Part shown: one piece after another, positions 33,731-56,861 of the stretch
How the letters are laid out: every line of letters starts with the position of its first letter
How positions within the stretch are numbered: position 1 is the first letter of the stretch
Source of the DNA: Scytolyngbya sp. HA4215-MV1
GTDB taxonomy: Bacteria > Cyanobacteriota > Cyanobacteriia > Leptolyngbyales > Leptolyngbyaceae
DNA: 64,000 bases
Direction: 5' to 3'
NCBI GenBank assembly: GCA_019359045.1
Contig: JAHHIA010000001.1
Location: 186,001 to 250,000 of the forward strand
Position numbers and translations under genes: made by a program
The notes under the pieces: model-generated
The model's database searches: none
What the model was told of the DNA's origin: nothing
Seen by the model: only the letters and a program-made list of their open reading frames with translations

Positions 33731-34261
33731 ATGTTGACACCCCCATTAAAACCCCTTGCAACGCAGTTGCAGGATGAAGTTGACTATGGTGATAACGGTA
33801 TGTCCAGAAAATATCTGGTCAAAAGACCACAACACCAAGCCATGCTGATTTGTTTACAAGCTGGTATTCAGATCCCTGAACATACCAGCACCTACGATGG
33901 ATTTATTACAGTAATTCAGGGACGCGGGGTCTTTGTGTTAGCAGGGCAAGCAGTGGCACTAGAGCCGGGTGTTTTTATTGAATTGCCTGCAAACACACTG
34001 CACGCTCTCACAGCCGTAGAAGACCTGGCAATCCTGAAGGTGGTAGATAGTCACGAATCGCAAAAATCTAACCCTGGGAACAAGAAAATCTCCTGTCAGG
34101 ATCAGGGACGGGAAAATCGATCCAAACAGGCAACTTGTGCAGAGTCACTGGTAGAAATGTTCAAGCCCTATTTACAACTTTTGCCGTTAGTGGACACTTC
34201 GTCACCCAACCCTGCCGAAGTGAACCAGCGCTTCGGCACGAACTCCGATGAAGTGAATTAG
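33731..34261 (+). CDS. Cupin domain protein
   Basis: A 176-residue protein with one cupin beta-barrel (about residues 30-105): the segments ICLQAGIQIPEHTSTYDGFITVIQGRGVFVLAG and PGVFIELPANTLHALTAVED give the two cupin motifs, with His in PEHTS and Glu/His residues that could hold a metal. The last 65 residues are a polar tail, probably disordered. GGAGG lies before the ATG. It follows the nitrogenase-associated gene by 16 nt, so both are likely one unit. The ligand is unknown. Confidence 0.75.
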   Translation: MLTPPLKPLATQLQDEVDYGDNGMSRKYLVKRPQHQAMLICLQAGIQIPEHTSTYDGFITVIQGRGVFVLAGQAVALEPGVFIELPANTLHALTAVEDLAILKVVDSHESQKSNPGNKKISCQDQGRENRSKQATCAESLVEMFKPYLQLLPLVDTSSPNPAEVNQRFGTNSDEVN

Positions 34262-34265
34262 GGGC

Positions 34266-34358
34266 CTGTCAAGACTGGTTTGAGGGTTTTCAACCCCTCA
34301 AACCATCTCAAAAATGGTTTTTGTAGATTTGAATGACCTCTCAAATCTACCCTGACGG
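34266..34358. repeat. 93-nt structured repeat, copy 1 (cloverleaf-like)
   Basis: This element fills the gap between the convergent cupin and modBC genes. It is closed by CTGTCA/TGACGG (one G-T pair), with hairpins at 34277-34304 (10 bp, GGTTTGAGGG), 34309-34323 (CAAAAA, loop TGG) and 34323-34350 (10 bp, GTAGATTTGA). It aligns without gaps to 56693-56785 at 76 of 93 positions (counted by hand). Confidence 0.8.
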
Positions 34359-34362
34359 ACTA

Positions 34363-36219
34363 CTACGCTTCTAACAAAATTAGCCGCAGTGCATCGAGTT
34401 GCACAAGCCAGGGTAGGGGTTTGTGCTTGAGAACATTCCACTTTTCTTTAAAGACTTCAGCCTGAAGGTGATAGTCCTGAGGATCAGCAGGATGAAGATT
34501 AAATTTGAGAAAGACCGTCATGCGATGGGGGGTTTCACTGGTGGAAGCGAGCCAGCAAGGGAAGGTGTTGGGCTGGCTGAGCTGATCCGTAAACCGGATT
34601 TGATGGGCACGAATACCCACATACGCCAGGCGATCGGGCATCGGCTTCAGCACTCGCAGTTGAATCCCCCAAGCAATTGCCAGGATTTCTTGCTCAGCAA
34701 GCATCTGGGCAGGGGAAATATTCTTACACCCGGTTAATTGAGCCACGCCCAATGTACCGGGACGTTCAAAAATGTCGTACTTGGAACCATCGGCAAGGGC
34801 ATGTCCCGCCTCCAGCACTAGCAAATCATCACAGACCCGGTAGGCTTCTTCTAAATTGTGAGTAACTAATAGACTCACCCCGCTAAAGCTCCGAAGGCGA
34901 GCAATCATCGCCTGTTCTATCTGGCTACGCAGGTGCGTGTCCAATGCCGAAAAAGGTTCATCCAGCAATAGCACTTCGGGTTCACTTGCCAGTGCCCGTG
35001 CCAGTGCAACTCGTTGTTGCTGACCCCCAGAAAGCTGGTTGGGATAGCGATCGCCATAGCCCTGCAATTGCACAGCTTCCAGTTGGGCTTCCACCTTTAG
35101 CCGGGATTCCTGGGCTGAAAGGGATTTGGGCAAGCCAAAGGCAATATTTTGGGCAACCGTCATGTTGGGAAACAGCGCATAATTTTGCACCAAAAACCCA
35201 ATTCGGCGATCGCGGCTCAGCACATTAATCCGTTGTTTGGCATCAAATAGGACGCGCCCGTTTAATACAATCTGTCCGCTAGTTGGGCTTTCCATGCCAG
35301 CGATACACCGCAGCAACATACTTTTACCGGCACCTGACCCACCCAAAATACCCAGGGTTGATCCAGTCACGGTAAACGCCAAATCCAGATCAAAATTGGC
35401 AAGCTGCTTTTGAATATCGATCGCTAAGCCAACTGCACCCTTCGCAGGCAACCTGGAAGATCGAGCGGAAGCTGCCTCTCGATCATTTCCCCAGGGTTTA
35501 ACCGCTAGCGATCTCTTTACAGGGGCACTCTGGAAGAGTTGCCGCTTTTGCTGTTGGTCTCGCCAAAAATTGACTGCCACGATGCCCGAAAGCGACATCA
35601 ACAGGATAATAACCGCCCAAAACCAGGCTTCATTGATGGCGCCAGCTTCCACAGCAAAGTAAATTGCCATAGGAATGGTCTGGGTCTGCCCTGGAATATT
35701 GCCTGCCAGCATCAGAGTGGCACCAAATTCACCCAACGCCCGAGCGAACGCCAATACCGCTCCTGCCAAAACCCCTGGCAGTGCCAAAGGCAACAGAATG
35801 CGACAAAATACGCTCCATTCGGAAGCCCCCAATGTTCGGGCAACCGCTAACAAATTGCTGTCAACTTGTTCAAAGGCTCCTAAGGCAGTGCGGTACATCA
35901 GAGGAAAAGACACCACCATCGCGGTAATCACTGCCCCGTACCAGGTAAAGACGATACTGAAATCAAAGGACAGCAGCAACTGACCAGCAGGTCCATTTTT
36001 GCCAAATAACAATAGCAATAGAAACCCAACCACGGTGGGTGGCAAGATCAAGGGCGAGATCAAGATCCCTTCCAGCAAAGATTTTCCTTTGCCACGGTAG
36101 TTCTGCATCCAGTAGGCAACGGCAATTCCAGCAAAAAAGGTGAAGACCGTTGCCAACAACGATACCTTGAGTGAAATCCAGAGTGGAGAAAGGTCTAGTG
36201 GCACCGCGATCGCGTCCAT
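34363..36219 (-). CDS. modBC: Molybdate ABC transporter ModB-ModC fusion (permease and ATPase)
   Basis: A 618-residue fusion. The first 225 residues are a ModB permease with about five membrane helices and the cytoplasmic coupling motif EWSVFCRILLPLALPGVLAGAVLAFARALGEFGAT. The rest is a ModC ATPase with Walker A GGSGAGKSM, signature [15 protein letters not shown], Walker [13 protein letters not shown] and switch His in LLVTHNLEEA. A C-terminal segment follows in place of a long TOBE domain. Fusion of ModB and ModC is known in cyanobacteria. It imports molybdate or tungstate delivered by ModA, whose gene starts 94 nt upstream on the same strand. Confidence 0.92.
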   Translation of the reverse strand: MDAIAVPLDLSPLWISLKVSLLATVFTFFAGIAVAYWMQNYRGKGKSLLEGILISPLILPPTVVGFLLLLLFGKNGPAGQLLLSFDFSIVFTWYGAVITAMVVSFPLMYRTALGAFEQVDSNLLAVARTLGASEWSVFCRILLPLALPGVLAGAVLAFARALGEFGATLMLAGNIPGQTQTIPMAIYFAVEAGAINEAWFWAVIILLMSLSGIVAVNFWRDQQQKRQLFQSAPVKRSLAVKPWGNDREAASARSSRLPAKGAVGLAIDIQKQLANFDLDLAFTVTGSTLGILGGSGAGKSMLLRCIAGMESPTSGQIVLNGRVLFDAKQRINVLSRDRRIGFLVQNYALFPNMTVAQNIAFGLPKSLSAQESRLKVEAQLEAVQLQGYGDRYPNQLSGGQQQRVALARALASEPEVLLLDEPFSALDTHLRSQIEQAMIARLRSFSGVSLLVTHNLEEAYRVCDDLLVLEAGHALADGSKYDIFERPGTLGVAQLTGCKNISPAQMLAEQEILAIAWGIQLRVLKPMPDRLAYVGIRAHQIRFTDQLSQPNTFPCWLASTSETPHRMTVFLKFNLHPADPQDYHLQAEVFKEKWNVLKHKPLPWLVQLDALRLILLEA

Positions 36220-56294: not shown

Positions 56295-56692
56295 AGGTTT
56301 CTGGATAGATACAGTCGATCAACAATCCGGCGTTAAATAACAACCTTCAGCAGAATACGGTCTGCCAAGGGATTTGGTAAATCAATACAAAAAAATCCTA
56401 GGTTTTCATTTCTCTCGCATTAATACAATGACAAGGTTGTTGGTTTGGATACTACTCCTTTAGAGAGAATTTTTAGATAGAATTTTAGACTGCTTTGATA
56501 GCGTGAAGTGTTCACTGAGTGGCGTCAAAATTATAGAGGTTGCAGGGTTCATCTTCTTGACAAGATTGTGTATTTCATCCTACAAGTTAAGCCTGCCTAT
56601 TAATTCTGTCAGCACGTTGCAAAATTACATCCTAAAAATTAACCGAAAATTAACTTCAGAACCCCGTTAAAAATCTTTGCCGGTTCTAGGGG

Positions 56693-56785
56693 CTGTCAAG
56701 ACTGTTTTAAAGAGTTGAAAACCCTCAAAACATCTCAAAAATGGTTTTTGTCGATTTAAGCGACTCCTTAAATCTATCCTGACGG
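56693..56785. repeat. 93-nt structured repeat, copy 2 (cloverleaf-like)
   Basis: The same length and order of stems as copy 1 at 34266. Closing CTGTCA/TGACGG and the hairpin CAAAAA-TGG-TTTTTG (56736-56750) are unchanged. In the second stem base pair G-C (34278/34303) is replaced by T-A (56705/56730), and in the last stem G-C (34331/34342) by A-T (56758/56769); three other second-stem positions become A-C mismatches. Confidence 0.8.
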
Positions 56786-56838
56786 GTTACTAGCCCAATC
56801 TTTCTATAAGTGAGGTTGACTGACTTCATCCCATCGAC

Positions 56839-56861
56839 TCACCTGAAGAGGTGATTTTTTT
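56839..56861 (+). terminator. Rho-independent terminator with no upstream plus-strand gene
   Basis: TCACCT-GAAG-AGGTGA followed by seven T. The nearest upstream gene on the plus strand is more than 6 kb away, so this ends either a non-coding transcript (possibly including the 93-nt repeat) or acts as an attenuator before the thioredoxin gene. Confidence 0.85.

Follow-up and report, generated by a model that had tools for sequence, protein, structure and literature searches.

Several small bacterial elements resemble the repeat described here. RUP of Streptococcus pneumoniae is 107 bp long, has IS630-like ends, adopts a fold in which the ends pair, and is over-represented between convergent genes (PMC3049150). 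It is likened to the present MITE by description; its host is another one, and the passages on RUP in that source do not mention loop inversion. In cyanobacteria, Anabaena sp. 90 carries gene-interrupting MITEs of 77–541 bp, whose predicted fold contains inverted repeats in three sets (PMC3542288). These also compare by description, but they are classed in that source as type II elements without a matching IS, whereas the present MITE has an IS630 match. Nezha, cited as an active cyanobacterial MITE (Zhou et al., 2008, in PMC10969869), is a further case likened by description.

A second body of work concerns how hairpins change. Template switching between the arms of an inverted repeat homogenizes the arms and inverts the spacer (PMC8604942), and it creates compensatory changes (PMC8794818). 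Minute inversions of hairpin loops have long been known in chloroplast DNA (Kelchner and Wendel, 1996, as cited in PMC2903610). Template-switch mutations and plastid minute inversions, as far as these sources describe them, show paired stem changes and flipped loops like those reported below (PMC8604942; PMC8794818; PMC2903610). The earlier template-switch cases come from yeast coding DNA, RNA genes and plastids, whereas here the changes are found among dispersed copies of one bacterial MITE.

The window analyzed is a stretch of 64,000 nucleotides from Scytolyngbya sp. HA4215-MV1, whose genome comprises 6.6 Mb in 33 contigs. A preliminary description had pointed to two copies of a cloverleaf-like sequence, at 34266–34358 and 56693–56785. 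Both are 93 nt long, and our recount agrees that they align without gaps at 76 of 93 positions. The repeat is real, with about 30 genomic copies, but its limits had been drawn too short. Alignment of these copies with their flanks, with boundaries set where similarity stops, makes the 93 nt the inner portion of an element of 102–103 bp. With its TA flanks the conserved element extends over 34259–34365 in copy 1 and 56687–56792 in copy 2, both on the + strand. If the TA is reckoned as duplicated target, the element proper occupies 34261–34363 (103 bp) and 56689–56790 (102 bp). The TA duplications lie at 34259–34260 and 34364–34365 in copy 1 (target T-TA-C), and at 56687–56688 and 56791–56792 in copy 2 (CTAG target).

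The consensus of the aligned copies starts with CTAGTGGTCTGTCAAGA and finishes with TCCTGACGGACTACTAG, and the terminal inverted repeats read GTrGTCyGTCArGA at both ends (also given as TAGTRGTCYGTCARGA). In copy 1 the left repeat is at 34261–34275 on the + strand (GGGGCCTGTCAAGAC; consensus GTGGTCTGTCAAGAC), and the right one at 34349–34363, reading GTAGTCCGTCAGGGT on the - strand. Three hairpins lie between them on the + strand. The loop of hairpin 1 (34276–34305), GGGTTTTCAACCCC, is in the inverted orientation (B): it is exactly reverse-complementary to GGGGTTGAAAACCC, the most frequent loop. Hairpin 2 (34309–34323; CAAAAATGGTTTTTG) is weak and absent from the minimum-energy + strand fold, and hairpin 3 (34325–34348) has its loop in orientation A. 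In copy 2, hairpin 1 is at 56703–56732 (+ strand) with the loop in orientation A (GAGTTGAAAACCCTC), so that the two window copies carry opposite orientations of this loop.

Copy 1 takes up the space between two convergent genes, as had been noticed before, and both ORFs terminate on TAG codons made by the element, at 34259–34261 (+) and 34363–34365 (-). The element begins with G after the TA, so insertion writes an outward TAG at each end; insertion into a stop codon is thus harmless. A mild enrichment at stop codons is unconvincing: by our reading it involves five of about 25 copies in this genome, compared with a share of 11% among the window's non-genic CTAG sites. The terminator reported beyond copy 2 was found again as a terminator-like site that follows this copy, at 56839–56854.

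BLAST searches of the Scytolyngbya genome, with copy 1 and then the consensus as query, located about 30 copies, full or partial, distributed over 11 contigs. This is far beyond chance, the best E-value with the consensus being about 1e-45, and full-length copies are roughly 80–97% identical to the consensus. Among 58 genomes searched, this one included, 18 match the element at E ≤ 0.001; some of them match in the left half only, a half common to sister families. Relatives in the host's family carry more copies than the Scytolyngbya genome itself. In a phylum-wide sample of 291 genomes, with up to three candidates scored per genome, no further match at E ≤ 1e-10 appeared. The end sequence had no relevant literature match. 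Nor was the family found in the literature searched, a weak negative since ISfinder and most subscription papers lay outside the search.

The best view of an insertion comes from Alkalinema sp. RU_4_3, in which one element (locus L138, 2598–2704) interrupts a gene. When the element is removed and one TA retained, a frame of 305 codons is regained. The uninterrupted gene is present in seven other genomes, with the whole 258-aa query covered. In each of the seven, an alignment to the joined DNA of about 500 bp spans the junction. Six of these alignments are gapless, and that with L178 has four gap openings. Long frames are likewise regained after joining at the L105 and L140 insertions. Target-site duplication is thus seen against an empty site, at L138, with TA and CTAG undistinguished there.

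Most copies have CTAG at either flank. In copies with C and G flanks, duplication of TA and of the 4-bp CTAG would leave identical sequence and are indistinguishable. Copies with other flanks, such as copy 1 with T and C, would favor TA, though they may be mutated. As a separate observation, the window contains 125 CTAG sites, where its base composition would predict about 250.

A probable parent element was found when IS630-type transposase loci of related genomes were scanned for the ends of the MITE. Locus L119 is 1,220 bp long from TA to TA, has the end sequence CTAGTAGTCTGTCAA and holds two ORFs, 167 and 208 aa long. These match NF033545 (IS630 family transposase), DDE_3 and HTH_32, the match of the first ORF to NF033545 being under the curated cut-off. 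The L119 genome also holds related MITEs, and relatives of L119 with similar ends occur in several other genomes. Genome G025 has many copies with 86–97% identity to the second L119 ORF, and its matches to DDE_3, an IS630-type transposase family, number about 150. The L119 transposase is divided over two ORFs (914–2079), and the G025 copies have equal open-frame lengths of the second ORF; this layout is therefore possibly a matter of frameshifting instead of decay.

Since intact IS630-family elements in related genomes (L119, L146, L151 and others) share its ends, the repeat can be assigned to the IS630-type MITEs. It is short, multicopy and non-coding, being too small at 102–103 bp for a transposase, and it has terminal inverted repeats. 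The sequence family is a further example of this established kind. An earlier suggestion of a small mobile structured element is thus borne out by the inverted ends, the TA duplication, the empty-site comparison and autonomous IS630 elements that share these ends. That the copies might prove to belong to the ends of a known insertion sequence had been named beforehand as a refuting outcome; the result comes close to this, as their ends match those of IS630-family elements.

No relative of the L119 transposase was detected in the Scytolyngbya genome at E ≤ 1e-20. Its IS630 remnants were considered as partners; none is related to the L119 transposase at this cut-off, and those with findable ends have different ends. 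Neighbors of the MITE in Alkalinema and other genomes were considered as autonomous elements, and inspection by eye revealed no transposase-like ORF among those listed. The MITE family has probably lost its helper in this genome, albeit one assembled in 33 contigs. Since no transposase matching the MITE turned up in the host genome, the host's copies are probably relics in decay.

Both copies had been described as folding into a cloverleaf with three hairpins. On either strand both do fold more stably than dinucleotide-shuffled sequence (copy 1: z -5.6/-5.7; copy 2: z -2.8/-3.6), but in neither is the best + strand fold the one with three hairpins. Copy 1 lacks the middle hairpin in its best + strand fold; copy 2 adopts the three hairpins on the - strand only and folds differently on the + strand. 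Strand preference by folding energy was inconsistent between the copies and the consensus.

Compensatory changes between the two copies had been described, and the change of pair 34278/34303 from G-C to T-A is real. In an alignment of 39 copies (A1), with changes scored against the commonest letters, ten double changes in hairpin 1 restore Watson-Crick pairing and three do not (1.7 expected from shuffles, p ≤ 0.0002). The corresponding counts are four and one in hairpin 2 (1.8 expected, p 0.05), and three and none in hairpin 3 (0.8 expected, p 0.034). The terminal stem that would close the cloverleaf has no excess, with six restoring changes and 11 that do not restore pairing (4.9 expected, p 0.35). 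The tally for the whole structure exceeds both shuffles and slid partners, an outcome that relatedness alone can cause. A significance check of the kind proposed earlier is therefore clear for hairpin 1 and empty for the closing stem: covariation is real, yet strong in hairpin 1 alone and weak in hairpin 3.

The loops change as well, and by inversion. The hairpin 1 loop has two forms, GGGGTTGAAAACCC and GGGTTTTCAACCCC, which are exact reverse complements of each other. Its four asymmetric positions read GGAA in 13 of 39 copies and TTCC, the exact inversion, in six; the remaining loops are different or mixed, and several come close to TTCC. The hairpin 3 loop is inverted in about seven copies. 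In L022 and L025 it reads GGTCA, which is TGACC inverted; L197 and L079, both from one genome, have GGATA and TATCC, an exact reverse-complementary pair. Hairpins 1 and 3 vary independently, and both states are present in two genera. Loop orientation does not follow the tree of copies: it requires 11 changes for hairpin 1 (shuffled mean 9.1) and six for hairpin 3 (shuffled 6.6). Genome of origin requires three (shuffled mean 12.1) and does follow the tree. Recurrent flipping is likely, and only likely because the tree, built on 89 columns, has one strongly supported branch. One possibility is that two ancestral loop forms were shuffled among copies.

The repeat is an old and tiny non-autonomous transposon, and its paired changes look like errors of DNA copying within hairpins rather than signs of a conserved RNA. 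We hold with high confidence that it is an IS630-type MITE moved in trans, with template switching most likely behind the changes in its hairpins. The element carries only ends resembling those of an IS630-family insertion sequence, with three short hairpins between them. Going by the sequence comparisons, an IS630-family transposase would have moved it in trans into TA, preferably within CTAG. During replication, template switches between hairpin arms would copy one arm onto the other and flip the loop. Template switching accounts for stems and loops together and needs no selection on RNA. Taken on its own, and judged from the pattern of changes, it is the probable source of both the paired changes and the loop inversions.

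The covariation of hairpin 1 could instead reflect selection for the hairpin. The hairpins of the MITE would then be selected as DNA or in read-through transcripts, for transposase recognition, as cruciforms or for protection of mRNA ends, and selection would have made the compensatory changes. In agreement with this, TTTGAGGG adjoins both ends, within hairpins 1 and 3, the ends of IS630 elements have similar motifs, and hairpin 1 is common to sister MITE families. We nevertheless regard it as rather unlikely, as selection on pairing leaves the block inversion of unpaired loop bases unexplained. Moreover, IS630-type elements require just their ends: mini-transposons that retained 30 bp from either end of ISY100 were as mobile as the complete element (PMC2170065). 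If loop flipping were a repeated, perhaps enzyme-assisted event linked to transposition and not a replication accident, each MITE copy would record its own moves; we give this little credence.

Also improbable is the structured non-coding RNA family proposed earlier, namely a transcribed cloverleaf with its pairing under selection. The genuine compensatory changes in hairpin 1, the stable folds and a whole-structure tally above shuffles and slid partners speak in its favor. However, covariation does not extend throughout the structure, the closing stem having none, most stem changes are one-sided, and some copies lie inside genes. Block inversion of unpaired loops is not what selection on RNA pairing predicts. 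Counts of G.U and A.C mismatches are nearly equal in hairpin 1 (12:18) and hairpin 3 (8:13), which argues that pairing is not favored as RNA on either strand; the ratio of 21:5 in hairpin 2 includes 13 G.U that are one change at one pair, largely between genera. No Rfam family was matched at the gathering threshold, below which only two weak eukaryotic matches appeared. Likewise improbable is a MITE that belongs to a different IS family, for example IS5-like, and duplicates the 4-bp CTAG: most copies do have CTAG on both sides, but the autonomous elements with these ends encode an IS630-family transposase, and IS630 itself prefers TA in CTAG, going by a title cited in PMC2170065 (Tenzen and Ohtsubo, 1991).

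It follows that compensatory changes among copies of a repeat need not signal a functional RNA, and that inverted loops accompanying paired changes are a mark of template switching in DNA. With these hairpins present in approximately 30 dispersed copies, the family supplies natural replicates for estimating the rate at which bacterial hairpins are rewritten in this manner.

Two minor observations concern individual copies. Just 3' of a gene judged minC-like by eye, the Scytolyngbya genome and G009 each have a MITE in the same orientation (L025 and L190) with differing loop orientations. This is the one candidate for a loop flipped in place, but the two MITEs are at unequal distances from the gene; they lie at about 2910–3020 of L207 and about 2930–3055 of L208, reverse strand. 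In L191 (601–708), hairpin 3 is a perfect palindrome centered on GCGATCGC, which we take to be the HIP1 sequence of cyanobacteria.
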